64,000 nucleotides of DNA from Petrolisthes cinctipes (Eukaryota > Arthropoda > Malacostraca > Decapoda > Porcellanidae). Position 1 is the stretch's first letter. Each line of letters opens with the position of its first letter. The notes below the pieces were generated by a model. That model did not search any database and had not been told where the DNA came from. It saw nothing but the letters and a program-made list of their open reading frames with translations. The position numbers were made by a program, and so were the translations under genes. Positions 29,713 through 59,278 of the stretch are shown here, in pieces. The stretch covers positions 1,637,501 to 1,701,500 of the forward strand of contig JAWQEG010000526.1 of the NCBI GenBank assembly GCA_033782935.1, given 5' to 3'.

Positions 29713-30051
29713 GGGGGAGACTTTGAGACTGGGTCGTGGAGAGAGAGGCTGTATGATTTTATGCTCTCTCCTCTAGCTGCCAGGGCCTGCCGCACCGGCA
29801 GTAGTTTCTTTTTTTTCGCCCTTCTGGTGACGACTAGGCTTAGCTAGTATTCATTCCCTCCATAGCTGGTAGTAGATATAGTAGGTGTCTATATCTTTAT
29901 ATTGAGATCAACTTTGCCTCCTGCCTATGGTGGACTCCCCCACTGATAGCTCTGGGTGTGGTTAATTAGTTAATTAGGGCTGGTATAAATCCCTCTCTGG
30001 TGTTTTCTTTTCCTCTTCTCACTTCCCCCCATCTTGGGGGAAGTGGTTACT

Positions 30052-31365
30052 ATGTTGCCTTCCCTCCCAACCCCTCCTCCGTATAGCGGAGGAGGCGGCC
30101 ATGACCGACCACCACCACGAACCGACGGACGAACCGAGACTCGAACACCCCTTGACATAGACGTGAAAAATGCTTCGTTTGTTATGTTACATGCCACTGG
30201 TTCGGCCCCACTAGCCGGCCTCAATCCTTTCATTGTTCAAAAGGTAATTGATGGCTGGGCTGGTGTGGTTGAATCTGTAAAAAAACTTGCCTCTGGAGAT
30301 CTCTTAGTCAAAACATTTAATTCAAAACAAGTAGCCACTTTGCTAAAATTACGTCAGATCCACAATTATGAAGTAGAAGCCAAGATTCCTCAAGCCATGA
30401 ATTCCTGCAGGGGAGTAATCACCTGTAGGGATTTAATGATGATGGAAGAAACGGAAATAATTGAGGAAATGAAAAATCAAGATATCATTGACGCTAGATT
30501 CATTACACGTTTAGAGGATGGTATAAGGAAGAAGACTGCAACCCTAATTTTGACTTTTGGCAAAGTTTCACTTCCTGAAACTGTCAAAATTGGATATGAA
30601 ATCGTTAAAGTAAGACCCTTTATCCCCAACCCTCTTAGATGCTTGAACTGTCAGATTTATGGACATGGAAATCGAACTTGTAAGGCTTCTTCTCCAATGT
30701 GTGGCAGGTGCGCGACGCCTGGCCATGTTGAGGAAAAGTGCACATCAGTGGAGCTCTCCTGCTTTCATTGTAAGGGTACTCACTCCACTTCCTCGAGGGA
30801 TTGTCCCAAGTGGAAGCTGGAGAAGGAGGTCTGCTCAGTGAAGGCAGTGCGAGGTATCTCTTATCATGATGCGAGGAAGGCGGTGATGGGATCGCAAGCG
30901 ACCCCATCACCCAATGTCTCGTATGCATCGGCGGTGATATCTCGACCCGTGATGTGTACTATCAGTACTCAGACTGAGTCAGAGCCGAGCGAACAGGCTG
31001 ATCACTCTACTACTACACCTACTATTATTACCCCCTCTAAGACTATTACCAAATCTACTAACTCCTATTCTCAGGCTGCAGCTGCTTTGCAGTCAGAGAA
31101 ACCAAAGAAGAAGTCAGACAAGAAAGATAAAGTTAACTACACCACCCTAAAACCAAAGTCACTTCCTTGCACACACCCTACTCCCACTTCATCGGGGGAG
31201 AGAAGGGATAGCTCTTCCTCGGTGGAGTCTGGGAGACTCACCATTGATGAGGAAGCAATGGATGTCTCCGGACGCAAGAACCGGGAAAGGTCCCCCGGTA
31301 GCTACTCGCCACGCGGCGGGCGGCACAAGAAGACTAAGCACGCAGGCCGACCCCGTAACTCTTAA
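30052..31365 (+). CDS. Unit 1 ORF1, gag-like zinc-knuckle RNA-binding protein
   Basis: 437 aa from the ATG at 30052 (MLPSLPTPPPYSGGGG). The frame is open a few codons upstream, but only through TTG. Residues about 50-190 form the conserved gag-like domain with LNPFIVQKV, RGVITCRDL and PETVKIGYEIVKVRPFIP. Three CCHC-type knuckles follow from residue 197: CLNCQIYGHGNRTC, CGRCATPGHVEEKC and CFHCKGTHSTSSRDC. The C-terminus is Ser/Thr and Lys rich with a basic end, probably nuclear targeting. It would coat the LINE RNA. Compared with other units it has M instead of V before the second knuckle (SPMC) and V in GHVEEK. Confidence 0.93.
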   Translation: MLPSLPTPPPYSGGGGHDRPPPRTDGRTETRTPLDIDVKNASFVMLHATGSAPLAGLNPFIVQKVIDGWAGVVESVKKLASGDLLVKTFNSKQVATLLKLRQIHNYEVEAKIPQAMNSCRGVITCRDLMMMEETEIIEEMKNQDIIDARFITRLEDGIRKKTATLILTFGKVSLPETVKIGYEIVKVRPFIPNPLRCLNCQIYGHGNRTCKASSPMCGRCATPGHVEEKCTSVELSCFHCKGTHSTSSRDCPKWKLEKEVCSVKAVRGISYHDARKAVMGSQATPSPNVSYASAVISRPVMCTISTQTESEPSEQADHSTTTPTIITPSKTITKSTNSYSQAAAALQSEKPKKKSDKKDKVNYTTLKPKSLPCTHPTPTSSGERRDSSSSVESGRLTIDEEAMDVSGRKNRERSPGSYSPRGGRHKKTKHAGRPRNS

Positions 31366-31371
31366 ATCGCC

Positions 31372-34300
31372 ATGTTCACTGTACTACAGTGGAATTGTAG
31401 AAGTCTTGGGAATAAATTGAACAACATATCAATATTATTACACACACACAGGCCAGACGTCGTCTGTCTACAGGAGACAGGGTTGGAGAATCACTCTGAC
31501 CCAACACAATTTAAACACTACAACGCATACAGGAGAAACGATGGACACGGAGTAGCAATATACACACACAAATCACATCCACAGACACAAATAACATTAA
31601 ACACTACTCTGGAAGCCGTTGCTTGCAGAGTGAAATTACACAACACCTACATATCCATCTGCTCTCTTTACTGTCCGCCACGCGGCCCCATTGACAGTGA
31701 TTTATTTCATAATTTATTTGGTCAACTAACTGGTAAAAAATTAATACTGGGCGATTTTAATGCCCATCACTGTCAGTGGGGAAGCTTAAGAACTGATGCT
31801 CGCGGAGGGCAGATGGCAGACATTATATTACAATCCAACCTCTGCCTCCTGAACGATGGCCAAGCCACCAGGGTTGACGATCGTTCTGGCAACTTTTCGG
31901 CCATCGATTTGTCTCTGGCCTCCCCGGATATACACCAGGATTTTTCTTGGCATCCTGAGTCCGACTCCCTTGGTAGTGACCACTTTCCCATCTGTCTCTC
32001 TTATTCAAGTCATACTGTTTCGGCCCCTTTGGTGCCAAAGTTTAGTTTTAAGAGAGCAGATTGGGGGTCTTTCGGGAGGATCGTCGACCTAGATATGTCC
32101 GGGGAGACCATAGATGAAAAGATGCGAAATGTAACACAAAACATTTTACACGCAGCTGAGGTTGCTATTCCCAAAACCTCTATAATTCGAAATAAGCGTG
32201 AAGCACATTGGTGGTCAACGGATTGCCGAGAGGCATTAAGGAAACGTAATAGGAGATACAGGATTTTTGACAAACAGCCCACTCAGAACAACTTTATAGC
32301 TTACAAACGGGCGAGAGCTGAGGCAAGGAGAGTAATTAATAGAGCTAAAAGGGACTCTTGGCGGTCGTTTGTGTCCACGGTGAATCGTTTTACACCACTT
32401 ACAAAAGTCTGGTCCACTATAAAGATACTAAATAACAAACGCCCGTATACCCCCATCACCACTCTTCAAGTGGACAACAACATCTACGACGATCCCGTGG
32501 ACGTAGCAAACGTACTTGCCAGGAGTTTCTCAAAAGTAAGTAGTTCAGCCAATTACGACCAACGTTTTCTCCATCACAAACGTACGGCTGAACTACAAGA
32601 GATAGACTTTGCCACAGAAGACGTAGACTACCCATACAACCGGGAGTTTACGATTGACGAACTTCTCCTTGCCCTAAGATCCTGTAAAGACACCAGTCCT
32701 GGACCTGACACCATCACGTACGGTATGATCCGGCATCTTGGCCAGGATAACCTGGTCAAGTTGCTAGCACTGTATAATGAGATTTGGGTGTCTAACACCT
32801 TCCCAAACTCATGGCACTTTGCGTGGATCATACCGATACCTAAACAGTCTGGTCGTCTTATGAATCCCAGTTCATTTCGACCTATTGCGTTGACTTCCTG
32901 CCTCTGTAAAGTCATGGAAAGAATGATAAATAATAGGCTACTTTTTGTTTTAGAAGCGAAGGGTTTATTGAGTGATCGACAATGTGGCTTCCGGAAACAC
33001 CGGAGCACAGTTGATCACTTGATGAACCTGGAACATTGCATTTCAAAGGCATTTGCCAATAAAGAATTCATGGTAGGGGTGTTCTTGGACATCCATAAAG
33101 CCTATGACATGACATGGCGACACAGTATTCTGATGAAGCTTCACGGTTATGGTTTAAGAGGTAATTTGCCCATTTTCATCAACAACTTTTTGCGTGACAG
33201 AACCTTTTCTGTCACCCTTCCCTGTAATGTAACATCGGACATTTTTGTCCAAGAGAACGGGGTGCCACAGGGAAGCGTGCTTAGTCCTACACTTTTTAAC
33301 ATCATGATCAATGATATTCTGTCATCAGCTCTAGTTCCCAGGAATCTTAAATACTCGTTGTATGCTGATGATTGTGCAATGTGGCACTCGTCACGTAATG
33401 CACAGTTTTCAGTAGGACGGATTCAAGCAGCGCTTGATTCTGTCCACCAATGGGCCTTACAGTGGGGCTTTAAGTTTTCCGTTCCTAAGTGTACCGGAGT
33501 AATTTTTAGTAAACGTAGAGTACCTCAAATTAACGTAACGTTAGATGGCCAACCGGTACCATTTCATAATTCTGTTAAATTTTTAGGAATTCATTTTGAC
33601 CAAAGATTAAATTTTACACATCATATTAATAACTTGCTTGTTCGTTGTGAAAAACCTTTAAATGTCCTTAAGTACCTATCAGGTACCACATGGGGAGCCG
33701 ACAGGAAATCTTTATTAATGGTGTATAAAACCCTAATTCGTACAAAGCTAGACTATGGCTCACAGGTGTATGGATCGGCATCAGATACAACATTAGGGAG
33801 ATTGGATGTGTACCAGAATAAATGTTTACGTGTGTGTTTGGGAGCTCTGAAGTGTACACGTGTAGCTAGGATGGAGGTGGAGGCGAACATACCTCCTCTC
33901 CGACTTCGACGGGATCAAATCGCCATCAACACTGCCATGTCCACCATCAGGAAGTCGGAGATCGGTAACGTAGCCAGTGCCTCCCTTCAACAACATCACT
34001 ACCTTCACCACGGAAGACGGAGGCCACTGGCTGTCCGCCTCCACCAGCTAGAACAACAACTGCAAATAGACCTCGGGGACTGCGACAAGTTCATCACCAC
34101 CAAGATACCACCGTGGGAGACACCCAACTTCGGCGTCAACACATCGTGGTTACCATCATCAAAAGAAAAGGCGCCGGAGTTGGAGATACACCACCTGTTT
34201 GGTGGTATAGTACGCAGTCACCTGGGGTCTCATCACGTGTACACTGACGGCTCCAAGTCAGATGAAAGTGTGGGTTCGAGTGTATGGTCGAGTGAATGTG

Positions 34301-35052
34301 AAATTAGGTACAGATTGCCGATACATACATCTGTGTTTACAGCAGAACTTTTTGCAATTGACAAAGCCATAGACTATGCACTAAATTCTCGTTATAATTC
34401 AATAGTCATTTTCTCAGACTCCAAGTCAGCCCTTCAGGCAATTAACTCATGTCAAACTATTTCTAATGAAATCCAGGGTCGCATCATTAATAAGTTGCAC
34501 TTATGCAACAAGTCCTTCACTCTGATCTGGGTGCCCGGGCATTGTCGTATTTATGGCAATGAACGGGCAGACTTACTTGCAAAATCGGCTGTAGAGCTCG
34601 AGGTTACTTGGGACGTCCCTCGTGATTTACAGTCGTGTCTATCCCTCGGAAAGAAATCAATTAATCTTCTGTGGCAAGGTCAGTGGACCAGACTAAACAT
34701 CTCTACCATCAAGCCTCAACTGGGTAATTGGGCCACTGCCAACCGGCCCAATAGACTAGAAGAAAGAATCCTCGCAAGAGTGCGAACCAACTGCACCAGG
34801 ATAACACACCTAGAACCATATATAGACAAACGTTTTCCACCGCATTGTAACACCTGCAATGCGGTGTTATCTATCAGTCATATCATCCTGCATTGTCGGC
34901 GATTTGTGGGGGAACGTGCTTCCCTCATAAGTTACTGCGATGCAGTAAAAGTCCCCTTCACACTCTCAGCTCTCTTAGGTGATGGGGATGGTGGTGTGAC
35001 TGATAAATTGATGACTTTCTTGAGGGAGACCGAACTGATCAGAGTGATGTGA
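31372..35052 (+). CDS. Unit 1 ORF2, endonuclease-RT-RNase H polyprotein
   Basis: 1226 aa, starting six bases after the ORF1 stop. The APE-type endonuclease is at residues 1-215, with E35 (LQETG), D128/N130 (LGDFNAHH) and D203/H204 (GSDHFPI). The RT spans about 400-760, with PGPDTITY, FRPIALTS, D573 (FLDIHKAYD), GVPQGSVLSPTLF and YADD at 664-667. RNase H spans about 955-1075, with D959 (YTDGSK), E992 (TAELFAID), D1016 (FSDSKSAL) and D1067 (ERADLLAK). A C-terminal zinc motif starts at C1159 (HCNTC...SHIILHC). All catalytic residues I can place are present. Its role is target-site nicking, reverse transcription on the nicked DNA, and RNA removal. Confidence 0.95.
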   Translation: MFTVLQWNCRSLGNKLNNISILLHTHRPDVVCLQETGLENHSDPTQFKHYNAYRRNDGHGVAIYTHKSHPQTQITLNTTLEAVACRVKLHNTYISICSLYCPPRGPIDSDLFHNLFGQLTGKKLILGDFNAHHCQWGSLRTDARGGQMADIILQSNLCLLNDGQATRVDDRSGNFSAIDLSLASPDIHQDFSWHPESDSLGSDHFPICLSYSSHTVSAPLVPKFSFKRADWGSFGRIVDLDMSGETIDEKMRNVTQNILHAAEVAIPKTSIIRNKREAHWWSTDCREALRKRNRRYRIFDKQPTQNNFIAYKRARAEARRVINRAKRDSWRSFVSTVNRFTPLTKVWSTIKILNNKRPYTPITTLQVDNNIYDDPVDVANVLARSFSKVSSSANYDQRFLHHKRTAELQEIDFATEDVDYPYNREFTIDELLLALRSCKDTSPGPDTITYGMIRHLGQDNLVKLLALYNEIWVSNTFPNSWHFAWIIPIPKQSGRLMNPSSFRPIALTSCLCKVMERMINNRLLFVLEAKGLLSDRQCGFRKHRSTVDHLMNLEHCISKAFANKEFMVGVFLDIHKAYDMTWRHSILMKLHGYGLRGNLPIFINNFLRDRTFSVTLPCNVTSDIFVQENGVPQGSVLSPTLFNIMINDILSSALVPRNLKYSLYADDCAMWHSSRNAQFSVGRIQAALDSVHQWALQWGFKFSVPKCTGVIFSKRRVPQINVTLDGQPVPFHNSVKFLGIHFDQRLNFTHHINNLLVRCEKPLNVLKYLSGTTWGADRKSLLMVYKTLIRTKLDYGSQVYGSASDTTLGRLDVYQNKCLRVCLGALKCTRVARMEVEANIPPLRLRRDQIAINTAMSTIRKSEIGNVASASLQQHHYLHHGRRRPLAVRLHQLEQQLQIDLGDCDKFITTKIPPWETPNFGVNTSWLPSSKEKAPELEIHHLFGGIVRSHLGSHHVYTDGSKSDESVGSSVWSSECEIRYRLPIHTSVFTAELFAIDKAIDYALNSRYNSIVIFSDSKSALQAINSCQTISNEIQGRIINKLHLCNKSFTLIWVPGHCRIYGNERADLLAKSAVELEVTWDVPRDLQSCLSLGKKSINLLWQGQWTRLNISTIKPQLGNWATANRPNRLEERILARVRTNCTRITHLEPYIDKRFPPHCNTCNAVLSISHIILHCRRFVGERASLISYCDAVKVPFTLSALLGDGDGGVTDKLMTFLRETELIRVM

Positions 35053-35375
35053 CTTTTTATTACTATTGTTACCATTTTGTATGACTATTTCTCAATTATG
35101 AATATTATAAATTATGTGTTGTATATATTGTATATTATGATGTATTAGCTAGGTTTAGCGATTGTCTAAAATAGGTTTAGCGATTTGTCTGTCTAGGTTT
35201 AGCGATTGGCTGGAATAGGTATTAGTCTAGTTAGCTATTGGTTGAGTAGGTACATAGATTAGTTTATTAGCTAGGATGTAAGATTAAGAAATTTTATTTG
35301 TATGAATGTACAAAACAAAAATTGTATATGGTTTAGTTAAAATGTAATAATAATAATAATAATAATGATAATAAC

Positions 35376-35424
<49 letters not shown>

Positions 35425-35567
35425 TATGCATAAAAATAATATGCAAAAATTTAAAAATAAAATATTAATAAATAAATAAAATAAAAAAAAAATAAAAAAA
35501 TAAAAGGCCTTAATGACCAACACCAAGGTCGATAGGCCAGGAAAAAAAAAAAAAAAAAAAAAAAAAA
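35053..35567 (+). repeat. Unit 1 3' UTR: TAGGTTTAGCGATT repeats, (TAA)n, stem-loop, poly(A)
   Basis: Three spaced copies of TAGGTTTAGCGATT lie at about 35148-35210. A (TAA)n tract is at 35346-35423. A stem-loop at 35506-35538 (GGCCT/AGGCC outside, GACC/GGTC inside) ends three bases before A26. The same order recurs in every unit. Confidence 0.85.
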
Positions 35568-35575
35568 CATTCTTC
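35568..35575 (+). repeat. Target duplication CATTCTTC between units 1 and 2
   Basis: Sits exactly between the poly(A) of unit 1 and the G-run of unit 2, and matches the sequence before unit 1. Confidence 0.8.
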
Positions 35576-35958
35576 GGGGACTTTGAGACTGGGTCGTGGA
35601 GAGAGAGGTCGTATGTTTTTATGCTCTCTCCTCTAGCTGCCAGGGCCTGCCGCACCGGCAGTAGTTTCTTTTTTTTCGCCCTTCTGGTGACGACTAGGCT
35701 TAGCTAGTATTCATTCCCTCCATAGCTGGTAGTAGATATAGTAGGTGTCTATATCTTTATATTGAGATCAACTTTGCCTCCTGCCTAAGGTGGACTCCCC
35801 CACTGATAGCTCTGGGTGTGGTTGAACACAGTCGGACCACCTTAGTGTGGGTTGAGAGGTTGATCTCAATCATTAGTTAATTAGGGCTGGTATAAATCCC
35901 TCTCTGGTGTTTTCTTTTCCTCTTCCCACTTCCCCCCATCTTGGGGGAAGTGGTTACT

Positions 35959-37275
35959 ATGTTGCCTTCCCTCCCAACCCCTCCTCCGTATAGCGGAGGA
36001 GGCGGCCATGACCGACCACCACCACGAACCGACGGACGATACGAGACTCGAACACCCCTTGACATAGACGTGAAAAATGCTTCGTTTGTTATGTTACATG
36101 CCACTGGTTCGGCCCCACTAGCCGGCCTCAATCCTTTCATTGTTCAAAAGGTAGTTGATGGCTGGGCTGGTGTGGTTGAATCTGTAAAAAAACTTGCCTC
36201 TGGAGATCTCTTAGTCAAAACATTTAATTCAAAACAAGTAGCCACTTTGCTAAAATTACGTCAGATCCACAATTATGAAGTTGAAGCCAAGATTCCTCAA
36301 GCCATGAATTCCTGCAGGGGAGTAATCACCTGTAGGGATTTAATGATGATGGAAGAAACTGAAATAATTGAGGAAATGAAAAATCAAGATATCATTGACG
36401 CTAGATTTATTACACGATTAGAGGATGGTATAAGGAAGAAGACTGCAACCCTAATTTTGACTTTTGGCAAAGTTTCACTTCCTGAAACTGTCAAAATAGG
36501 TTATGAAATCGTTAAAGTAAGACCCTTTATCCCCAACCCTCTTAGATGCTTGAACTGTCAGATTTATGGACACGGAAATCGAACTTGTAAGGCTTCTTCT
36601 CCAGTGTGTGGCAGGTGCGCGACGCCTGGCCATGCTGAGGAAAAGTGCACATCAGTGGAGCTCTCCTGCTTTCATTGTAAGGGTACTCACTCCACTTCCT
36701 CGAGGGATTGTCCCAAGTGGAAGCTGGAGAAGGAGGTCTGCTCAGTGAAGGCAGTGCGAGGTATCTCCTATCATGATGCGAGGAAGGCGGTGATGGGATC
36801 GCAAGCGACCCCATCACCCAATGTCTCGTATGCATCGGCGGTGATATCTCGACCCGTGATGTGTACCATTAGTACTCAGACTGAGTCAGAGCCGAGCAAA
36901 CAGGCTGATCACTCTACTACTACACCTACTATTATTACCCCCTCTAAGACTATTACCAAATCTACTAACTCCTATTCTCAGGCTGCAGCTGCTTTGCAGT
37001 CAGAGAAACCACAAAAGAAGAAGTCAGACAAGAAAGATAAAGTAAACTACACCACCCTAAAACCTAAGTCACTTCCTTGCACACACCCTACTCCCACTTC
37101 ATCGGGGGAGAGAAGGGATAGCTCTTCCTCGGTGGAGTCTGGGAGACTCACCATTGATGAGGAAGCAATGGATGTCTCCGGACGCAAGAACCGGGAAAGG
37201 TCCCCCGGTAGCTACTCGCCACGCGGCGGGCGGCACAAGAAGACTAAGCACGCAGGCCGACCCCGTAACTCTTAA
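35959..37275 (+). CDS. Unit 2 ORF1, gag-like protein
   Basis: 438 aa from ATG 35959, with the same domain order as unit 1 ORF1. The N-terminal region reads TDGRYETR. It differs by SKQADHS (SEQADHS elsewhere) and EKPQKKKSD. The three zinc knuckles are intact, with SPVC and GHAEEK. Confidence 0.93.
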   Translation: MLPSLPTPPPYSGGGGHDRPPPRTDGRYETRTPLDIDVKNASFVMLHATGSAPLAGLNPFIVQKVVDGWAGVVESVKKLASGDLLVKTFNSKQVATLLKLRQIHNYEVEAKIPQAMNSCRGVITCRDLMMMEETEIIEEMKNQDIIDARFITRLEDGIRKKTATLILTFGKVSLPETVKIGYEIVKVRPFIPNPLRCLNCQIYGHGNRTCKASSPVCGRCATPGHAEEKCTSVELSCFHCKGTHSTSSRDCPKWKLEKEVCSVKAVRGISYHDARKAVMGSQATPSPNVSYASAVISRPVMCTISTQTESEPSKQADHSTTTPTIITPSKTITKSTNSYSQAAAALQSEKPQKKKSDKKDKVNYTTLKPKSLPCTHPTPTSSGERRDSSSSVESGRLTIDEEAMDVSGRKNRERSPGSYSPRGGRHKKTKHAGRPRNS

Positions 37276-37281
37276 ATCGCC

Positions 37282-40962: not shown

Positions 40963-41269
40963 CTTTTTATTTCTATTGTTACCATTTTGTATGACTATTT
41001 TTCAATTATGAATATTATAAATTATGTGTTGTATATATTGTAAATTATGATGTATTAGCTAGGTTTAGCGATTGTCTAATATAGGTTTAGCGATTTGTCT
41101 GTCTAGGTTTAGCGATTGGCTGGAATAGGTATTAGTCTAGTTAGCTATTGGTTGAGTAGGTACATAGATTAGTTTATTAGCTAGGATGTACAATTTTGTA
41201 TATAAAGTTACAAAAGAAAACCAAAAACAATTAGTATATAAGTATAATTTTAAGTTTAAATGTAACAGA

Positions 41270-41310
<41 letters not shown>

Positions 41311-41472
41311 TAAATGCATAAAATAATATGCAAGATGTTCAATTTAAAATAATAATAAATAAATAAAATAACAAATAAATTTCAAAAATAAATAAAATAA
41401 AATAAAATAAAGGCCTTAATGACCAACACCAAGGTCGATAGGCCAGGAAAAAAAAAAAAAAAAAAAAAAAAA

Positions 41473-41480
41473 CATTCTTC
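41473..41480 (+). repeat. Target duplication CATTCTTC between units 2 and 3
   Basis: Same octamer, directly after A25 and before GGACTTTGAG. Confidence 0.8.
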
Positions 41481-41861
41481 GGACTTTGAGACTGGGTCGT
41501 GGAGAGAGTAGACGTATGATTTGTGCTCTCTCCTCTAGCTGCCAGGGCCTGCCGCACCGGCAGTAGCTTCTTTTTTTTCGCCCTTCTGGTGACGACTAGG
41601 TTTAGCTAGTATTCATTCCCTCCATAGCTGGTAGTAGATATAGTAGGTGTCTATATCTTTATATTGAGATCAACTTTGCCTCCTGCCTATGGTGGACTCC
41701 CCCACTGATAGCTCTGGGTGTGGTTAAACACAGACGGACCACCTTAGTGTGGGTTGAGAGGTTGATCTCAAACATTAGTTGATTAGGGCTGGTTATTATC
41801 CTTTTCTGGTGTTTTCTTTTCTCCTTCCCACTTCCCCCCATCCTTGGGGGAAGTGGTTACT

Positions 41862-47432: not shown

Positions 47433-47813
47433 GGACTTTGAGACTGGGTCGTGGAGAGAGTAGACGTATGATTTGTGCTCTCTCCTCTAGCTGCCAGGGC
47501 CTGCCGCACCGGCAGTAGTTTCTTTTTTTTCGCCCTTCTGGTGACCACTAGGATTAACTAGTATTCATTCCCTCCATAGCTGGTAGTAGATATAGTAGGT
47601 GTCTATATCTTTATATTGAGATCAACTTTGCCTCCTGCCTATGGTGGACTCCCCCACTGATAGCTCTGGGTGTGGTTAAACACAGACGGACCACCTTAGT
47701 GTGGGTTGAGAGGTTGATCTCAAACATTAGTTGATTAGGGCTGGTTATTATCCTTTTCTGGTGTTTTCTTTTCTCCTTCCCACTTCCCCCCATCCTTGGG
47801 GGAAGTGGTTACT

Positions 47814-49130: not shown

Positions 49131-49136
49131 ATCGCC

Positions 49137-52100
49137 ATGTTCACTGTACTACAGTGGAATTGTAGAAGTCTTGGGAATAAATTGAACAACATATCAATAT
49201 TATTACACACACACAGGCCAGACGTCGTCTGTTTACAGGAGACAGGGTTGGAGAATCACTCTGACCCAACACAATTTAAACATTACAACGCATACAGGAG
49301 AAACGATGGACACGGAGTAGCAATATACACACACAAATCACATCCACAGACACAAATAACATTAAACACTACTCTGGAAGCCGTTGTTTGCAGAGTGAAA
49401 ATACACAACACCTACATATCCATCTGCTCTCTTTACTGTCCGCCACGCGGCCCCATTGACAGTGATTTATTTCATAATTTATTTAGACAACTGCATGGTA
49501 AAAAATTGGTACTGGGCGATTTTAATGCCCATCACTGTCAGTGGGGAAGCTTAAGAACTGATGCTCGCGGAGGGCAGATGGCAGACATTATACAACAATC
49601 CAACCTCTGCCTCCTGAACGATGGTCAAGCCACCAGGGTTGACGATCGTTCTGGCAACTTTTCGGCCATCGATTTGTCTCTGGCCTCCCCGGATATACAC
49701 CAGGATTTTTCTTGGCATCCTGAGTCCGACTCCCTTGGTAGTGACCACTTTCCCATCTGTCTCTCTTATTCAAGTCATACTGTTTCGGCCCCTTTGGTGC
49801 CAAAGTTCAATTTTAAGAGAGCAGATTGGGGGTCTTTCGGGAGGATCGTCGACCTAGATATGTCCGGGGAGACCATAGATGAAAAGATGCGAAATTTAAC
49901 ACAAAACATTTTACACGCAGCTGAGGTTGCTATTCCCAAAACCTCTATAATTCGAAATAAGCGTGAAGCACATTGGTGGTCAACGGATTGCCGAGAGGCA
50001 TTAAGGAAGCGTAATAGGAGATACAGGATTTTTGACAAACAGCCCACTCAAAACAACTTTATAGCTTACAAACGGGCGAGGGCTGAGGCAAGGAGAGTAA
50101 TTAATAGAGCTAAAAGGGACTCTTGGCGGTCGTTTGTGTCCACGGTGAATCGTTTTACACCACTTACAAAAGTCTGGTCCACTATAAAGATATTAAATAA
50201 CAAACGCCCGTATACTCCCATCACCACTCTTCAAGTGGACAATAACATCTACGACGATCCCGTGGACGTAGCAAACGTACTTGCTAGGAGTTTCTCAAAA
50301 GTAAGTAGTTCAGCCAATTACGATCAACGTTTTCTCCATCACAAACGTATGGCTGAACTACAAGAGATAGACTTTGCCACAGAAGACGTAGACTACCCAT
50401 ACAACCGGGAGTTTACGATAGACGAACTTCTCCTTGCCCTAAGATCCTGTAAAGACACCAGTCCTGGACCTGACATCATTACGTACGGTATGATCCGGCA
50501 TCTTGGCCAGAATAACCTGGTCAAGTTGCTAGCACTGTATAATGAGATTTGGGTGTCTAACACCTTCCCAGACTCATGGCACTTTGCGTGGATCATACCG
50601 ATACCTAAACAGTCTGGTCGTCTTGTGAATCCCAGTTCATTTCGACCTATTGCGTTGACTTCTTGCCTCTGTAAAGTCATGGAAAGAATGATAAATAATA
50701 GGCTACTTTTTGTTTTAGAAGCGAAGGGTTTATTGAGTGATCGACAATGTGGCTTCCGGAAACACCGGAGCACAGTTGATCACTTGATGAACCTGGAACA
50801 TTGCATTTCAAAGGCATTTGCCAATAAAGAATTCATGGTAGGGGTGTTCTTGGACATCCATAAAGCCTATGACATGACATGGCGACACGGTATTCTGATG
50901 AAGCTTCACGGTTATGGTTTAAGAGGTAATTTGCCCATTTTCATCAACAACTTTTTGCGTGACAGAACCTTTTCTGTCACCCTTCCCTGTAATGTAACAT
51001 CGGACATTTTTGTCCAAGAGAACGGGGTGCCACAGGGAAGCATGCTTAGTCCTACACTTTTTAACATCATGATCAATGATATTCTGTCATCAGCTCTAGT
51101 TCCCAGGAATCTTAAATACTCGTTGTATGCTGATGATTGTGCAATGTGGCACTCGTCACCTAATGCACAGTTTTCAGTAGGACGGATTCAAGCAGCGCTT
51201 GAATCTGTCCACCAATGGGCCTTACAGTGGGGCTTTAAGTTTTCCGTTCCTAAGTGTACCGGAGTAATTTTCAGTAAACGTAGAGTACCTCAAATTAACG
51301 TAACGTTAGATGGCCAACCGGTACCATTTCATAATTCTGTTAAATTTTTAGGAATTCATTTTGACCAAAGGTTAAATTTTACACATCATGTTAATAATTT
51401 GCTTGTTCGTTGTGAAAAACCTTTAAATGTCCTTAAGTACCTATCAGGTACCACATGGGGAGCCGACAGGAAATCTTTATTAATGGTGTATAAAACCCTA
51501 ATTCGTACAAAGCTAGACTATGGCTCACAGGTGTATGGGTCGGCATCAGATACAACACTAGGAAGATTGGATGTATTTCAGAACAAATGTTTACGTGTGT
51601 GTTTGGGAGCTCTGAAGTGTACACGTGTAGCTAGGATGGAGGTGGAGGCGAACATAACTCCTCTCCGACTTCGACGGGATCAACTCGCACTCAACACCGC
51701 TATGTCAACGATCCGGAAGTCGGAGATCGGCAACGTAGCCAGTGCCTCCCTCCAACAACATCACCACCTTCAACACGGAAGACGGAGGCCACTGGCTGTG
51801 CGCCTCCACCTGCTAGCCGAACAACTACAAATAGACCTTGGGGACTGCGACAAGTTTACCATCAACGAGATACCACCGTGGGAGACACCCAACTTCGGCG
51901 TCAACACATCGTGGTTACCATCATCAAAAGAAAAGGCGCCGGAGTTGGAGATACACCACCTGTTTGGTGGTATCATCCGCAGTCACCTGGGGTCTCATCA
52001 CGTGTACACTGACGGCTCCAAGTCAGATGAATGTGTGGGTGCGAGTGTATGGTCGAGTGAATGTGAACATAGGTACAGATTGCCGATACATACATCTGTG

Positions 52101-52817
52101 TTTACAGCAGAACTTTTCGCTATAGACAAAGCCATAGACTATGCACTGAATTCTCTTCATAATTCAATAGTCATTTTCTCAGACTCCAAGTCAGCCCTTC
52201 AGGCAATTAACTCATGTCAAACTATTTCCAATGAAATCCAGGGTCGCATCATTAATAAGTTGCACTTATGCAACAAGTCCTTTACTCTGATCTGGGTGCC
52301 CGGGCATTGTCGTATTTATGGCAATGAACGGGCAGACTTACTTGCAAAATCGGCTGTAGAGCTCGAGGTTACTTGGGACGTCCCTCGTGATTTACAGTCG
52401 TGTCTATCCCTCGGAAAGAAATCAATTAATCTTCTGTGGCAAGGTCAGTGGACCAGACTAAACATCTCTACCATCAAGCCTCAACTGGGTGATTGGGCCA
52501 CTGCCAACCGGCCCAATCGACTAGAAGAAAGAATACTGGCAAGAATAAGAACAAACTGCACCAGGATAACTCATTTAGAACCATATATAGACAAACGTTT
52601 TCCACCGCATTGTAACACCTGCAATGCGGTGTTATCTATCAGTCATATCATCCTGCATTGTCGGCGATTTGTGGGGGAACGTGCTTCCCTCATAAGTTAC
52701 TGTGATGCAGTAAAAGTCCCCTTCACACTCTCAGCTCTCTTAGGTGATGGGGATGGTGGTGTGACTGATAAATTGATGACTTTCTTGAGGGAGACCGAAC
52801 TGATCAGAGTGATGTGA
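49137..52817 (+). CDS. Unit 4 ORF2, endonuclease-RT-RNase H
   Basis: 1226 aa and intact. It carries the most private endonuclease changes: EAVVCRVKIHN, FRQLHGKKLVLGD and ADIIQQSN. In RT it has PGPDIITY, GQNNLVK, FPDSW and V636M in PQGSMLSPTLF. The C-terminal third matches unit 2 (EANITPL, DECVGASV). RNase H has the usual GNERADLL. Confidence 0.95.
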   Translation: MFTVLQWNCRSLGNKLNNISILLHTHRPDVVCLQETGLENHSDPTQFKHYNAYRRNDGHGVAIYTHKSHPQTQITLNTTLEAVVCRVKIHNTYISICSLYCPPRGPIDSDLFHNLFRQLHGKKLVLGDFNAHHCQWGSLRTDARGGQMADIIQQSNLCLLNDGQATRVDDRSGNFSAIDLSLASPDIHQDFSWHPESDSLGSDHFPICLSYSSHTVSAPLVPKFNFKRADWGSFGRIVDLDMSGETIDEKMRNLTQNILHAAEVAIPKTSIIRNKREAHWWSTDCREALRKRNRRYRIFDKQPTQNNFIAYKRARAEARRVINRAKRDSWRSFVSTVNRFTPLTKVWSTIKILNNKRPYTPITTLQVDNNIYDDPVDVANVLARSFSKVSSSANYDQRFLHHKRMAELQEIDFATEDVDYPYNREFTIDELLLALRSCKDTSPGPDIITYGMIRHLGQNNLVKLLALYNEIWVSNTFPDSWHFAWIIPIPKQSGRLVNPSSFRPIALTSCLCKVMERMINNRLLFVLEAKGLLSDRQCGFRKHRSTVDHLMNLEHCISKAFANKEFMVGVFLDIHKAYDMTWRHGILMKLHGYGLRGNLPIFINNFLRDRTFSVTLPCNVTSDIFVQENGVPQGSMLSPTLFNIMINDILSSALVPRNLKYSLYADDCAMWHSSPNAQFSVGRIQAALESVHQWALQWGFKFSVPKCTGVIFSKRRVPQINVTLDGQPVPFHNSVKFLGIHFDQRLNFTHHVNNLLVRCEKPLNVLKYLSGTTWGADRKSLLMVYKTLIRTKLDYGSQVYGSASDTTLGRLDVFQNKCLRVCLGALKCTRVARMEVEANITPLRLRRDQLALNTAMSTIRKSEIGNVASASLQQHHHLQHGRRRPLAVRLHLLAEQLQIDLGDCDKFTINEIPPWETPNFGVNTSWLPSSKEKAPELEIHHLFGGIIRSHLGSHHVYTDGSKSDECVGASVWSSECEHRYRLPIHTSVFTAELFAIDKAIDYALNSLHNSIVIFSDSKSALQAINSCQTISNEIQGRIINKLHLCNKSFTLIWVPGHCRIYGNERADLLAKSAVELEVTWDVPRDLQSCLSLGKKSINLLWQGQWTRLNISTIKPQLGDWATANRPNRLEERILARIRTNCTRITHLEPYIDKRFPPHCNTCNAVLSISHIILHCRRFVGERASLISYCDAVKVPFTLSALLGDGDGGVTDKLMTFLRETELIRVM

Positions 52818-53296
52818 CTTTTTATTACTATTGTTACCATTTTGTATGACTATTTTTCAATTATGAATATTATAAATTATGTGTTGTATATATTGTATAT
52901 TATGATGTATTAGCTAGGTTTAGCGATTGTCTAATATAGGTTTAGCGATTTGTCTGTCTAGGTTTAGCGATTGGCTGGTATAGGTATTAGTCTAGTTAGC
53001 TATTGGTTGAGTAGGTACATAGATTAGTTTATTAGCTAGGATGTACAATTTTGTATATAAAGTTACAAAAGAAAACCAAAAACAATTAGTATATAAGTAT
53101 AATTTTAAGTTTAAATGTAACAGAAATAATTATAATAATAATAAAAATAATAATAAAAATAAATGCATAAAATAATATGCAAGATGTTCAATTTAAAATA
53201 ATAATAAATAAATAAAATAACAAATAAATTTCAAAAATAAATAAAATAAAATAAAATAAAGGCCTTAATGACCAACACCAAGGTCGATAGGCCAGG

Positions 53297-53342
<46 letters not shown>

Positions 53343-53344
<2 letters not shown>

Positions 53345-53351
53345 ATTCTTC
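53343..53351 (+). repeat. Target duplication CCATTCTTC between units 4 and 5
   Basis: Same nonamer as the original left flank, followed by TGGGACTTTGAG. Confidence 0.8.
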
Positions 53352-53734
53352 TGGGACTTTGAGACTGGGTCGTGGAGAGAGAGGTCGTATGCTTTTTGCT
53401 CTCTCCTCTAGCTGCCAGGGCCTGCCGCACCGGCAGTAGCTTCTTTTTTTTCGCCCTTCTGGTGACCACTAGGTTTAGCTAGTAGTCATTCCCTCCATAG
53501 CTGGTAGTAGATATAGTAGGTGTCTATATCTTTATATTGAGATCAACTTTGCCTCCTGCCTATGGTGGACTCCCCCACTGATAGCTCTGGGTGTGGTTAA
53601 ACACAGACGGACCACCTTAGTGTGGGTTGAGAGGTTGATCTCAAACATTAGTTGATTAGGGCTGGTTATTATCCTTTTCTGGTGTTTTCTTTTCTCCTTC
53701 CCACTTCCCCCTATCCTTGGGGGAAGTGGTTACT

Positions 53735-55048
53735 ATGTTGCCTTCCCTCCCAACCCCTCCTCCGTATAGCGGAGGAGGCGGCCATGACCGACCACCACCA
53801 CGAACCGACGGACGATACGAGACTCGAACACCCCTCGACATAGACGTTAAAAATGCTTCGTTTGTAATGTTACATGCCACTGGTTCGGCCCCACTAGCCG
53901 GCCTCAATCCTTTCATTGTTCAAAAGGTAGTTGATGGCTGGGCTGGTGTGGTTGAATCTGTTAAAAAACTTGCCTCTGGAGATCTCTTAGTCAAAACATT
54001 TAATTCGAAACAAGTAGCCACTTTGCTAAAATTACGTCAGATCCACAATTATGAAGTAGAAGCCAAGATTCCTCAAGCCATGAATTCCTGCAGGGGAGTA
54101 ATCACCTGTAGGGATTTAATGATGATGGAAGAAACTGAAATAATTGAGGAAATGAAAAATCAAGATATCATTGACGCTAGATTCATTACACGTTTAGAGG
54201 ATGGTATAAGGAAGAAGACTGCAACCCTAATTTTGACTTTTGGCAAAGTTTCACTTCCTGAAACTGTCAAAATAGGTTATGAAATTGTTAAAGTAAGACC
54301 CTTTATCCCCAACCCTCTTAGATGCTTGAACTGTCAGATTTATGGACACGGAAATCGAACTTGTAAGGCTTCTTCTCCAGTGTGTGGCAGGTGCGCGACG
54401 CCTGGCCATGCTGAGGAAAAGTGCACATCAGTGGAGCTCTCCTGCTTTCATTGTAAGGGTACTCACTCCACTTCCTCGAGGGATTGTCCCAAGTGGAAGC
54501 TGGAGAAGGAGGTCTGCTCAGTGAAGGCAGTGCGAGGTATCTCCTATCATGATGCGAGGAAGGCGGTGATGGGATCGCAAGCGACCCCATCACCCAATGT
54601 CTCGTATGCATCGGCGGTGATATCTCGACCCGTGATGTGTACCATTAGTACTCAGACTGAGTCAGAGCCGAGCGAACAGGCTGATCACTCTACTACTACA
54701 CCTACTATCATTACCCCCTCTAAGACTATTACCAAATCTACTAACTCCTATTCTCAGGCTGCAGCTGCTTTGCAGTCAGAGAAACAAAAGAAGAAGTCAG
54801 ACAAGAAAGATAAAGTAAACTACACCACCCTAAAACCAAAGTCACTTCCTTGCACACACCCTACTCCCACTTCATCGGGGGAGAGAAGGGATAGCTCTTC
54901 CTCGGTGGAGTCTGGGAGACTCACCATTGATGAGGAAGCAATGGATGTCTCCGGACGCAAGAACCGGGAAAGGTCCCCCGGTAGCTACTCGCCACGCGGC
55001 GGGCGGCACAAGAAGACTAAGCACGCAGGCCGACCCCGTAACTCTTAA
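53735..55048 (+). CDS. Unit 5 ORF1, gag-like protein
   Basis: 437 aa from ATG 53735. TDGRYETR leader as in units 2 and 4, EKQKKKSD and STTTPTI. Zinc knuckles are intact. Confidence 0.93.
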   Translation: MLPSLPTPPPYSGGGGHDRPPPRTDGRYETRTPLDIDVKNASFVMLHATGSAPLAGLNPFIVQKVVDGWAGVVESVKKLASGDLLVKTFNSKQVATLLKLRQIHNYEVEAKIPQAMNSCRGVITCRDLMMMEETEIIEEMKNQDIIDARFITRLEDGIRKKTATLILTFGKVSLPETVKIGYEIVKVRPFIPNPLRCLNCQIYGHGNRTCKASSPVCGRCATPGHAEEKCTSVELSCFHCKGTHSTSSRDCPKWKLEKEVCSVKAVRGISYHDARKAVMGSQATPSPNVSYASAVISRPVMCTISTQTESEPSEQADHSTTTPTIITPSKTITKSTNSYSQAAAALQSEKQKKKSDKKDKVNYTTLKPKSLPCTHPTPTSSGERRDSSSSVESGRLTIDEEAMDVSGRKNRERSPGSYSPRGGRHKKTKHAGRPRNS

Positions 55049-55054
55049 ATCGCC

Positions 55055-58000
55055 ATGTTCACTGTACTACAGTGGAATTGTAGAAGTCTTGGGAATAAAT
55101 TGAACAACATATCAATATTATTACACACACACAGGCCAGACGTCGTCTGTTTACAGGAGACAGGGTTGGAGAATCACTCTGACCCAACACAATTTAAACA
55201 CTACAACGCATACAGGAGAAACGATGGACACGGAGTAGCAATATACACACACAAATCATATCCACAAACACAAATAACATTAAACACTACTCTGGAAGCC
55301 GTTGCTTGCAGAGTGAAATTACACAACACCTACATATCCATCTGCTCTCTTTACTGTCCGCCACGCGGCCCCATTGACAGTGATTTATTTCATAATCTAT
55401 TCAGTCAACTAACAGGTAAAAGATTAATACTGGGCGACTTTAATGCCCATCACTGTCAGTGGGGAAGCTTAAGAACTGATGCTCGCGGAGGGCAGATGGC
55501 AGACATTATACTACAATCCAACCTCTGCCTCCTGAACGATGGCCAAGCCACCAGGGTTGACGATCGTTCTGGCAACTTTTCGTCTATCGATTTGTCTCTG
55601 GCCTCCCCGGATATACACCAGGATTTTTCTTGGCATCCTGAGTCCGACTCCCTTGGTAGTGACCACTTTCCCATCTGTCTCTCTTATTCAAGTCATACTG
55701 TTTCGGCCCCTTTGGTGCCAAAGTTCAATTTTAAGAGAGCAGATTGGGGGTCTTTCGGGAGGATCGTCGACCTGGATATATCCGGGGAGACCATAGATGA
55801 AAAGATGCGAAATGTAACACAAAACATTTTACACGCAGCTGAGGTTGCTATTCCCAAAACCTCTATAATTCGAAATAAGCGTGAAGCACATTGGTGGTCA
55901 ACGGATTGCCGAGAGGCATTAAGGAAGCGTAATAGGAGATACAGGATTTTTGACAAACAGCCCACTCAGAACAACTTTATAGCTTACAAACGGGCGAGGG
56001 CTGAGGCAAGGAGAGTAATTAATAGAGCTAAAAGGGACTCTTGGCGGTCGTTTGTGTCCACGGTGAATCGTTTTACACCACTTACAAAAGTCTGGTCCAC
56101 TATAAAGATATTAAATAACAAACGCCCGTATACTCCCATCACCACTCTTCAAGTGGACAACAACATCTACGACGATCCCGTGGACGTAGCAAACGTACTT
56201 GCCAGGAGTTTCTCAAAAGTAAGTAGTTCAGCCAATTACGACCAACGTTTTCTCCATCACAAACGTATGGCTGAACTACAAGAGATAGACTTTGCCACAG
56301 AAGACGTAGACTACCCATACAACCGGGAGTTTACGATAGACGAACTTCTCCTTGCCCTAAGATCCTGTAAAGACACCAGTCCTGGACCTGACACCATCAC
56401 GTACGGTATGATCCGGCATCTTGGCCAGGATAACCTGGTCAAGTTGCTAGCACTGTACAATGAGATTTGGGTGTCTAACATCTTCCCAAACTCATGGCAC
56501 TTTGCGTGGATCATACCGATACCTAAACAGTCTGGTCGTCTTGTGAATCCCAGTTCATTTCGACCTATTGCGTTGACTTCTTGCCTCTGTAAAGTCATGG
56601 AAAGAATGATAAATAATAGGCTACTTTTTGTTTTAGAAGCGAAGGGTTTATTGAGTGATCGACAATGTGGCTTCCGGAGACACCGGAGCACAGTTGATCA
56701 CTTGATGAACCTGGAACATTGTATTTCAAAGGCATTTGCCAATAAAGAATTCATGGTAGGGGTGTTCTTGGACATCCATAAAGCCTATGACATGACATGG
56801 CGACACGGTATTCTGATGAAGCTTCACGGTTATGGTTTAAGAGGTAATTTGCCCATTTTCATCAACAACTTTTTGCGTGACAGAACCTTTTCTGTCACCC
56901 TTCCCTGTAATGTAACATCGGACATTTTTGTCCAAGAGAACGGGGTGCCACAGGGAAGCGTGCTTAGTTCTACACTTTTTAACATCATGATCAATGATAT
57001 TCTGTCATCAGCTCTAGTTCCCAAGAATCTTAAATACTCGTTGTATGCTGATGATTGTGCAATGTGGCACTCGTCACGTAATGCACAGTTTTCAGTAGGA
57101 CGGATTCAAGCAGCGCTTGATTCTGTCCACCAATGGGCCTTACAGTGGGGCTTTAAGTTTTCCGTTCCTAAGTGTACCGGAGTAATTTTTAGTAAACGTA
57201 GAGTACCTCAAATTAACGTAACGTTAGATGGCCAACCGGTACCATTTCATAATTCTGTTAAATTTTTAGGAATTCATTTTGACCAGAGATTAAATTTTAC
57301 ACATCATATTAATAACTTGCTTGTTCGTTGTGAAAAACCTTTAAATGTCCTTAAGTACCTATCAGGTACCACATGGGGAGCCGACAGGAAATCTTTATTA
57401 ATGGTGTATAAGACCCTTATTCGTACAAAGCTAGACTATGGCTCACAGGTGTATGGATCGGCATCAGATACAACATTAGGAAGATTGGATGTGTACCAGA
57501 ATAAATGTTTACGTGTGTGTTTGGGAGCTCTGAAGTGTACACGTGTAGCTAGGATGGAGGTGGAGGCGAACATACCTCCTCTCCGACTTCGACGGGATCA
57601 ACTCGCACTCAACACCGCTATGGCAACGATCCGGAAGTCGGAGATCGGTAACGTGGCCAGTGCCTCCCTTCAACAACATCACTACCTTCACCACGGAAGA
57701 CGGAGGCCACTGGCTGTGCGCCTCCACCAGCTAGAACAACAACTACAAATTGACCTCGGGGACTGCGACAAATTTACCATCTGCAAGATACCACCGTGGG
57801 AGACACCCAACTTCGGCGTCAACACATCGTGGTTACCATCATCGAAAGAAAAGGCGCCGGAGTTGGAGATACACCACCTGTTTGGTGATATCATTCGCAG
57901 TCACCTGGGGTCTCACCACGTGTACACTGACGGCTCCAAGTCGGATGAAAGCGTGGGTTCGAGTGTATGGTCGAGTGAATGTGAACTTAGGTACAGATTG

Positions 58001-58735
58001 CCGATACATACATCTGTGTTTACAGCAGAACTTTTTGCAATTGACAAAGCCATAGACTATGCACTAAATTCTCGTTATAATTCAATAGTCATTTTCTCAG
58101 ACTCCAAGTCAGCCCTTCAGGCAATTAACTCATGTCAAACTATTTCTAATGAAATCCAGGGTCGCATCATTAATAAGTTGCACTTATGCAACAAGTCCTT
58201 CACTCTGATCTGGGTGCCCGGGCATTGTCGTATTTATGGCAATGAACGGGCAGACTTACTTGCGAAATCGGCTGTAGAGCTCGAGGTTACTTGGGACGTC
58301 CCTCGTGATCTACAGTCGTGTCTATCCCTCGGAAAGAAATCAATTAATCTTCTGTGGCAAGGTCAGTGGACCAGACTTAACATCAACACCATCAAGCCTC
58401 AACTAGGTAATTGGGCCACTGCCAACCGGCCCAATCGATTAGAAGAACGTATCCTGGCAAGACTGAGAACAAACTGCACCAGAATAACTCATCTAGAACC
58501 ATATATAGACAAACGTTTTCCACCGCATTGTAACACCTGCAATGCGGTGTTATCTATCAGTCATATCATCCTGCATTGTCGGCGATTTGTGGGGGAACGT
58601 GCTTCCCTCATAAGTTACTGTGATGCAGTAAAAGTCCCCTTCACACTCTCAGCTCTCTTAGGTGATGGGGATGGTGGTGTGACTGATAAATTGATGACTT
58701 TCTTGAGGGAGACCGAACTGATCAGAGTGATGTGA
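55055..58735 (+). CDS. Unit 5 ORF2, endonuclease-RT-RNase H
   Basis: 1226 aa, uninterrupted. P639S changes the conserved RT motif to PQGSVLSSTLF, which may impair the enzyme. Other private changes are HKSYPQT, GKRLILGD, GNFSSIDL, GFRRHRS and HLFGDIIRS. The C-terminal third matches unit 3. YADD and the RNase H residues are intact. Confidence 0.95.
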   Translation: MFTVLQWNCRSLGNKLNNISILLHTHRPDVVCLQETGLENHSDPTQFKHYNAYRRNDGHGVAIYTHKSYPQTQITLNTTLEAVACRVKLHNTYISICSLYCPPRGPIDSDLFHNLFSQLTGKRLILGDFNAHHCQWGSLRTDARGGQMADIILQSNLCLLNDGQATRVDDRSGNFSSIDLSLASPDIHQDFSWHPESDSLGSDHFPICLSYSSHTVSAPLVPKFNFKRADWGSFGRIVDLDISGETIDEKMRNVTQNILHAAEVAIPKTSIIRNKREAHWWSTDCREALRKRNRRYRIFDKQPTQNNFIAYKRARAEARRVINRAKRDSWRSFVSTVNRFTPLTKVWSTIKILNNKRPYTPITTLQVDNNIYDDPVDVANVLARSFSKVSSSANYDQRFLHHKRMAELQEIDFATEDVDYPYNREFTIDELLLALRSCKDTSPGPDTITYGMIRHLGQDNLVKLLALYNEIWVSNIFPNSWHFAWIIPIPKQSGRLVNPSSFRPIALTSCLCKVMERMINNRLLFVLEAKGLLSDRQCGFRRHRSTVDHLMNLEHCISKAFANKEFMVGVFLDIHKAYDMTWRHGILMKLHGYGLRGNLPIFINNFLRDRTFSVTLPCNVTSDIFVQENGVPQGSVLSSTLFNIMINDILSSALVPKNLKYSLYADDCAMWHSSRNAQFSVGRIQAALDSVHQWALQWGFKFSVPKCTGVIFSKRRVPQINVTLDGQPVPFHNSVKFLGIHFDQRLNFTHHINNLLVRCEKPLNVLKYLSGTTWGADRKSLLMVYKTLIRTKLDYGSQVYGSASDTTLGRLDVYQNKCLRVCLGALKCTRVARMEVEANIPPLRLRRDQLALNTAMATIRKSEIGNVASASLQQHHYLHHGRRRPLAVRLHQLEQQLQIDLGDCDKFTICKIPPWETPNFGVNTSWLPSSKEKAPELEIHHLFGDIIRSHLGSHHVYTDGSKSDESVGSSVWSSECELRYRLPIHTSVFTAELFAIDKAIDYALNSRYNSIVIFSDSKSALQAINSCQTISNEIQGRIINKLHLCNKSFTLIWVPGHCRIYGNERADLLAKSAVELEVTWDVPRDLQSCLSLGKKSINLLWQGQWTRLNINTIKPQLGNWATANRPNRLEERILARLRTNCTRITHLEPYIDKRFPPHCNTCNAVLSISHIILHCRRFVGERASLISYCDAVKVPFTLSALLGDGDGGVTDKLMTFLRETELIRVM

Positions 58736-59055
58736 CTTTTTATTTCTATTGTTACCATTTTTGTATGCTTATTTTTCAATTATGAATGCTATAAATTATG
58801 TGTTGTATATATTGTATATTATGATGTATTAGCTAGGTTTAGCGATTGTCTAATATAGGTTTAGCGATTTGTCTGTCTAGGTTTAGCGATTGGCTGGAAT
58901 AGGTATTAGTCTAGTTAGCTATTGGTTGAGTAGGTACATAGATTAGTTTATTAGCTAGGATGTTAAATTAAGAAATATTATTTGTATGAAAGTACAAAAT
59001 ACGAAAATTATTATATATGTTTAGTTTTAAGTTTCAATGTAATAATAATAATAAT

Positions 59056-59103
<48 letters not shown>

Positions 59104-59241
59104 CATAGAAATAATATGCAAAAAGTTAAAATTAAAATAATAATAAATAAATAAAATAAAAAAACAAATAAATAAATTTAAAATAAAAAAAAAAATAAAA
59201 AAAAAGGCCTTAATGACCAACACCATGGTCGATAGGCCAGG

Positions 59242-59278
<37 letters not shown>

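Follow-up and report, generated by a model that had tools for sequence, protein, structure and literature searches.

Results

Organization of the LINE-A array

We analyzed a 64,000-nucleotide stretch of the Petrolisthes cinctipes genome (1.48 Gb, 9385 contigs), positions 1637501-1701500 of the contig numbered C525 in our set, hereafter the window. It holds five copies of a long interspersed nuclear element (LINE), which we named LINE-A, that follow each other head to tail on the plus strand without a spacer, as the initial annotation had described. The octamer CATTCTTC, the target duplication of LINE-A at this locus, occurs on the plus strand at 29705, 35568, 41473, 47425, 53344, and 59279. 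These positions mark exactly both edges of the array and its four inner junctions, and one octamer indeed stands both before unit 1 and after unit 5. A seventh match in the window (17268, minus strand) lies away from the array. From left to right, the left-edge duplication (29705..29712) is followed by unit 1 (29713..35567; open reading frame (ORF) 1 at 30034-31365 and ORF2 at 31372-35052), the duplication at junction 1/2 (35568..35575), unit 2 (35576..41472; ORF1 35941-37275, ORF2 37282-40962), the duplication at junction 2/3 (41473..41480), and unit 3 (41481..47423; ORF1 41844-43193, ORF2 43200-46880). Junction 3/4 carries CCATTCTTC (47424..47432) and leads into unit 4 (47433..53342; ORF1 47796-49130, ORF2 49137-52817), and CCATTCTTC at junction 4/5 (53343..53351) leads into unit 5 (53352..59278; ORF1 53717-55048, ORF2 55055-58735). 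The right-edge duplication (59279..59286) closes the array, and a related element, LINE-B, begins directly after it.

Every junction has the same order, namely poly(A), octamer, a variable G-rich addition, and the ACTTTG start of LINE-A. Without the octamer and the extra C, units 1 to 5 measure 5855, 5897, 5943, 5910, and 5927 bp; their poly(A) tails are 26, 25, 47, 46, and 37 long, and the additions preceding ACTTTG read GGGGGAG, GGGG, GG, GG, and TGGG. An extra C ahead of the octamer, which gives CCATTCTTC, is found only at two of the four inner junctions (3/4 and 4/5). Each inner junction has its own combination of tail length, extra C, and 5′ addition. It appears unlikely that one unit was multiplied by an assembly error, because ORF2 of the units differs by 46-103 substitutions.

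ORF1 (443-449 residues by mechanical start) and the 1226-residue ORF2 are open in all five units, in line with the initial annotation. In unit 1, the unit that was scanned, ORF2 contains Pfam endonuclease, reverse transcriptase (RT), and RNase H domains. Together with the poly(A) tail and the target duplication, these domains place LINE-A among the apurinic/apyrimidinic endonuclease non-long terminal repeat (non-LTR) retrotransposons with RNase H. A stem-loop stands immediately ahead of the poly(A) in each of the five units (one form was folded, z = -3.9). The closest relative of ORF1 among named relatives is a fragment from Petrolisthes manimaculis (86% identity over 100 residues). None of the homologues listed bears a clade name. 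Searches for relatives in viral contigs returned 30 pattern matches, none of which was confirmed, and DNA patterns had no match in viral and prokaryote collections. A candidate downstream promoter motif within LINE-A was seen by eye only.

The initial annotation had seen neither telomeric nor ribosomal DNA (rDNA) here, and we agree. The window has no Rfam match at gathering score, as might mark the locus of an rDNA-specific R element, and no tRNA; nor does it contain runs of at least three TTAGG, TTAGGG, or TCAGG, and both array edges lie inside the contig, unlike those of a telomeric LINE.

The target is the terminal region of a Penelope-like element

The left half of the target (29515..29704, plus strand), as aligned to flanks on contigs C379 and C883, belongs to the terminal region of a Penelope-like element that is abundant in the genome (40 near-uninterrupted copies). 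It includes a TATA box, TATATAAG (29682..29689, plus strand), which ends about 15 bp ahead of the duplicated stretch and whose first T lies 31 nt from the octamer's last base, both ends counted. Remains of a Penelope-like element stand beside the target (27750..29468, minus strand), with an RVT_1 match above the cut-off (6.7e-11) and a GIY-YIG match below it (0.0046). A DNA query with the target, which favors empty copies, gave 1329 first-look candidates; of the 42 scored matches, 40 span 341 or more of the 351 bases at 98-100%. In 30 fetched loci, all 34 readings of TATA-bearing sites contain the octamer; these include the occupied C379 site, and a few sites were read twice. At locus L029, the target is flanked on one side by an RT-bearing ORF and on the other by the beginning of the next one.

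Genome-wide, the junction of poly(A), CATTCTTC, and LINE-A was found on two further contigs with a pattern that misses junctions with the extra C. These are C379 and C883, which also carry CATTCTTC-type arrays. In all, four target copies are occupied at the identical base: the one of the window array, two on C883, and one on C379. C883 has one full LINE-A and, facing away from it, a 5′-truncated copy, behind which another unit extends as far as the contig end; C379 has a truncated copy and two full units at the target. Thus, two 5′-truncated copies sit at the exact base of the Penelope target that full copies use. The right half of the target is present after LINE-A on C883 (one copy) and C379, with LINE-B in its place in the window. 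About 450 bp from the occupied target on C379, an empty copy reads TATATAAGG...CATTCTTCTACACTCTG.

Some features of the Penelope-like regions were recorded in passing. At L029 and C463 (6043162-6048840), terminal regions recur in one orientation at a spacing of ∼2.67 kb and are probably head-to-tail elements. Inverted Penelope terminal repeats, seen as outward-facing target pairs with a spacing of about 350-450 bp, occur on C379 (1087958-1088404) and C883 (1310868-1311190), and LINE-A occupies both members of the C883 pair. A hammerhead ribozyme, hinted at by CTGAAGATG...CGAAA in the terminal region, was rejected: none of seven loci gave a gathering-score match, and no such family was among 43 matches at E up to 5, most of which overlap a long inverted repeat.

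The units have separate sources

For comparison, we used nine long units from three contigs (five on C525, two on C883, two on C379), with the two truncated copies left out. ORF2 is open in all nine (one is cut by the contig end) and ORF1 is full-length in eight. Among the window units, pairwise divergence is 1.25-2.8% in ORF2 and 1-10.7% in the 3′ untranslated region (UTR), and the ratio of nonsynonymous to synonymous substitution rates (dN/dS) is 0.03-0.37. Their 25,059 coding bases contain no stop, which limits neutral divergence after insertion to about 0.3% when indels are ignored, a value below the differences observed. The low dN/dS together with the absence of stops suggests that the differences between units mostly predate insertion.

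Several units have near twins on other contigs. Unit 3, for instance, is nearest in ORF2 and the 3′ end to the solitary C883 copy (C883_m). The two diverge by 0.30% (early ORF2), 0.47% (late ORF2), and 0.12% (3′ end), and in the last of these parts unit 3 differs from its array mates by more than 6%. Units 2 and 4 are within 0.38-0.53% of one C379 unit in late ORF2 and the 3′ end, although not close to it in early ORF2 (2.26%); in these late parts, unit 2 is nearest to C379_near. The divergence between units 2 and 4 themselves is 0.53-0.62% in late ORF2 and the 3′ end, and that between other pairs of array mates reaches up to 7.5% at the 3′ end. Units 1 and 5 lack a comparable near twin on other contigs. 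Overall, in late ORF2 and the 3′ end, units 2, 3, and 4 have nearer relatives on other contigs than among their array neighbors. Since these parts interleave between loci, the comparison indicates that the window units were inserted separately, from several sources.

We also asked whether units cluster by locus, counting the labelings that cluster at least as strongly as the observed one. These numbered 146 of 756 for the 5′ UTR, 150 of 756 for early ORF2, 202 of 756 for late ORF2, and 110 of 168 for the 3′ UTR (one unit left out). ORF1, compared over window 29713-59278 and loci L005-L014, does cluster by locus (2 of 756), as if new copies took over this part from an array neighbor, by copying or by conversion. 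Mosaic units were found in all seven trios tried (maximum chi-square, permutation p 0.0005-0.007). Local exchange in ORF1 and the 5′ part of the units is therefore likely.

LINE-A 5′ ends across the genome

With up to two mismatches, the LINE-A 5′ end matched 858 places, 438 and 420 on the two strands, and a reversed-pattern control matched none. For the first 100 listed exact matches, a non-random sample in contig order, we retrieved the preceding 110 nt. Only one of these 5′ ends (L129) has CATTCTTC in front of it, and the proposal of the initial annotation that this octamer would be the constant duplication of the element genome-wide did not hold. A text pattern placed 66 of the 100 behind another LINE tail and left 34 as left edges (L130 was placed by eye); by another pattern, poly(A) and a hairpin remnant precede 56. 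By eye, the preceding tails are mostly those of LINE-A itself. LINE-B-type tails precede eight (L061, L067, L069, L070, L078, L106, L127, and L142), which indicates that LINE-A arrays mix families. A third related family, whose 3′ end is GGTGATAGGC-like followed by poly(A), precedes another three (L059, L063, and L107). A G stands immediately before ACTTTG in 99 of the 100.

Tandem runs are common, since 52 of the 100 places stand in same-strand runs with a spacing of one or two unit lengths. The longest run, on C102, comprises 10 places and includes one double gap as well as the TATA flank L119; the longest unbroken run (C40) has seven. Arrays have duplications of their own: TTGAAGTC on C40, TGACCGAACTT on C66, TGGGTCAATAG and TGACTGAACC on C102, TCATTGAGCAG on C193, and CACCAAGG on C119, although the A-tail and 5′ additions obscure their exact ends. 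One junction of the C40 array (L071) reads GAAGGC instead. Two local features stood out. At L119 (C102 4396069-4396184), a LINE-A tail comes directly before the TATA flank inside the run, a stretch that was rearranged or hit twice. On C62, 17 of the 100 5′ ends fall within 1.3 Mb (9.35-10.61 Mb, L083-L099), 16 of them being left edges.

Outside the C62 cluster, a TATA box stands at a fixed distance from the insertion point

The TATA box of the window had been recorded before the sample of 5′ ends was drawn. We tested 33 left edges, 16 in the C62 cluster (five flank groups) and 17 elsewhere (14 groups), where groups were formed at 70% likeness over 60 nt and three left-edge pairs were merged. 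The strict motif was TATAWA or TATATG, and a TATA was scored if it started 28-46 nt before ACTTTG. Outside C62, all 14 groups had a TATA in this interval, 12 of them the strict motif. Three upstream control intervals of equal width gave the strict motif in 0, 1, and 0 of the 14 groups and any TATA in 1, 2, and 1, and mononucleotide shuffles of the flanks gave the strict motif in a mean of 0.25 groups, with a maximum of 4 in 5000 shuffles. When L130, with TATAAAAGG at -33, is included, the totals outside C62 become 15 of 15 for any TATA and 13 of 15 for the strict motif. A TATA at a fixed position before unrelated sites, as expected of promoter- or start-site-directed insertion, is thus found in every one of the 15 groups outside C62; none of the five C62 groups has the strict motif.

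In seven arrays or pairs, inner junctions reveal the duplication, and the distance can be stated more exactly. Measured from where the TATA register begins (AATATAAG at L119) to the final base of the duplication, it is 31, 31, 33, 32, 31, 30, and 32 nt. About 31 nt is the textbook distance from a TATA box to the RNA polymerase II (Pol II) start site.

Other elements in the window

LINE-B (59287..64000, plus strand) abuts the right-edge octamer of the array with its 5′ edge. Its ORF1 lies at 59967-61331, and its ORF2 is disrupted near 61700 and continues into L015 (1-1320). The 5′ region of LINE-B is homologous to that of LINE-A, and its 3′ hairpin resembles that of LINE-A with a pair changed on both sides. 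The 3′ side, which we examined for a target duplication, is disturbed by an LTR element. Elsewhere in the genome, the predicted protein P0012 (on a contig of 1,004,923 bases) joins LINE-B ORF2 to a truncated LINE-A ORF1. Further features noted in the window are a DDE_Tnp_1_7 (piggyBac-type) transposase ORF (7664-10138, minus strand), a Tc/mariner-type helix-turn-helix ORF (18872-19612, plus strand), and another LINE without an RNase H match (20725-24751, minus strand).

Discussion

Judging from the sequence evidence, LINE-A, a non-LTR retrotransposon, has probably been active recently, inserting for the most part at Pol II start sites of the TATA type and recreating the site at its own 5′ edge. 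In the mechanism that we propose, target-primed insertion would duplicate a short stretch (∼6-11 bp) just ahead of the start position, and the new copy would begin about 31 nt past the TATA box, where transcription would start. The TATA box and the duplicated stretch would stay intact before the new copy, so that the next element could land there. An array would then grow at its 5′ edge, and only the front unit would face the host TATA box, which, if these promoters are active, could transcribe that unit from its first base. Growth at the 5′ edge fits the extra C at two inner junctions, as this C would most simply have been copied from the original CAACCATTCTTC, which itself remains at the 5′ edge. 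The G additions may stem from reverse transcription of capped RNA. A more specific version, to which we give an even chance, is that LINE-A targets Pol II preinitiation complexes. It would nick the melted start site 31 nt from the TATA box, insert at +1, adopt the host TATA box as its promoter, and leave the site reusable; arrays would be promoter queues in which the newest unit alone is transcribed.

A number of observations weigh against integration at TATA-type start sites as a general rule. The C62 cluster, which supplies 16 of the 33 left edges in five groups, has the strict motif in none of the groups and any TATA in one. L082 and L119 have weaker TATA registers only, L119 stands within a run, immediately downstream of a LINE-A tail, and L101 and L119 look related, which brings the number of independent groups slightly below 15. 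The sample itself is not random, being the first 100 listed of 858. P0012 holds a 5′-truncated LINE-A ORF1 inside a LINE-B ORF2 and probably reflects an off-target insertion. The initial annotation had held that random flanks at other copies would speak against serial insertion at a recreated target. Outside C62, this outcome was not seen, for the flanks do differ in sequence but share the TATA at a fixed distance; the C62 cluster does not fit.

Some alternatives concern how such sites are recognized. The endonuclease of LINE-A might simply prefer the shape or sequence of DNA at TATA-containing sites, with the transcription machinery uninvolved. This is a less likely but real possibility, as target-specific LINEs are described in the excerpts available to us as recognizing DNA directly (PMC8869645, PMC3706591) and as some LINE-A targets, such as the Penelope terminal region, belong to repeated families; what speaks against it is that the duplications differ between arrays (CATTCTTC, TTGAAGTC, TGACTGAACC, TGGGTCAATAG) and that the window TATA box ends well before the duplicated stretch. 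Strict specificity for CATTCTTC or the Penelope terminal region, in the manner of R1 for 28S, would account for the four Penelope copies occupied at the identical base, yet we regard it as extremely improbable given that only one of the 100 sampled 5′ ends has CATTCTTC, a result that rules the octamer out as a universal target or as a constant target sequence of the R1 type.

The growth of the array and the prevalence of TATA flanks might also have causes other than targeting. Unequal crossing over or tandem duplication, which the initial annotation had allowed as a way to expand the array, is not required and is a quite improbable main cause: the 5′ UTR, ORF2, and 3′ UTR do not cluster by locus, unit 3 is far closer to a copy on another contig than to its array mates at the 3′ end, the inner junctions are all distinct, and dN/dS is below 0.4 without a stop in 25 kb of ORFs. 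The mosaic units and the clustering of ORF1 do make local exchange in the ORF1 part probable. Alternatively, insertion could be random, with only the copies downstream of a TATA box being transcribed, spreading, and accumulating. A promoter-dependent LINE would amplify from such sites, and C62 shows that other sites occur. We nevertheless find this unlikely, since ordinary daughter copies would then be expected anywhere, whereas the groups outside C62 share one spacing. Survivorship of promoter-driven copies could contribute, but as the whole cause it is disfavored by the two 5′-truncated copies that likewise sit at the TATA site of the Penelope target.

The proposed integration of LINE-A at TATA-type start sites has partial precedents. 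Excerpts from work on Drosophila R1 (PMC2718515) describe tandem units with a 14 bp target duplication between them, an arrangement attributed to new copies that insert into the duplication flanking the 5′ end of a copy already present. R1 and LINE-A are alike in forming tandem arrays at one target with a duplication between units and non-templated 5′ nucleotides; in contrast to the single 28S sequence of R1, LINE-A uses many sequences that share a TATA box, with duplications of ∼6-11 bp. The window array displays the features of the R1-type array mechanism, and other arrays display them in part. The R1 precedent, the near twins on other contigs, and the CATTCTTC arrays on C379 and C883 bear out the initial annotation's view that serial insertions recreated the target at their own 5′ edge. 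Some LINEs target other transposable elements, according to parts of PMC8869645 (where Tx1L is cited for its endonuclease), and the window target likewise lies inside such an element. For LINE-A, however, it is one of several targets, and the common feature is the TATA box.

The Dictyostelium LINE TRE5-A resembles LINE-A, as we read it, in being placed with respect to a transcription unit instead of by sequence; in the portions consulted of PMC5391098 and PMC3706591, it goes to tRNA genes, at a distance, whereas LINE-A goes to apparent Pol II TATA promoters at about +1. Trypanosomatid L1Tc resembles LINE-A in accumulating where transcription initiates (strand switch regions), but LINEs of this type have a 5′-end promoter of their own, Pr77, unlike LINE-A as we read it, and the abstract of PMC4748587 mentions no TATA-fixed position. 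The fission yeast element Tf1, in the part of PMC3706591 that covers it, is similarly tied to promoters or start sites and is an LTR element. From what the sources at hand relate, the telomeric LINEs HeT-A, TART, and TAHRE, like LINE-A, add up at one kind of place; they maintain chromosome ends, whereas the LINE-A array is internal and bounded by the target duplication. These telomeric LINEs also stand head to tail. Ty3 of budding yeast is an LTR element whose insertion is tied to start sites, at Pol III genes. The subtelomeric rotifer LINE Hebe, part of a retroelement chain in the section available of PMC2861651, is a weaker parallel to the array.

What would be new in LINE-A is a reusable site set by position relative to a TATA box rather than by one sequence. 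No LINE with such TATA-position targeting was found among the top matches of open-licence literature searches, and searches on tandem LINEs and on Petrolisthes gave nothing relevant among the matches listed. Site-specific LINEs known so far mostly recognize one repeated sequence, and a TATA-position LINE, if true, would represent a new targeting rule for the class. It could explain how a LINE without its own promoter survives; its insertions could serve as a natural record of start sites, and the element could be a source of a start-site-directed, RNA-templated insertion enzyme. For head-to-tail LINE arrays in general, it suggests the rule that a target whose recognized part lies before the cleavage site survives insertion and may be used again.

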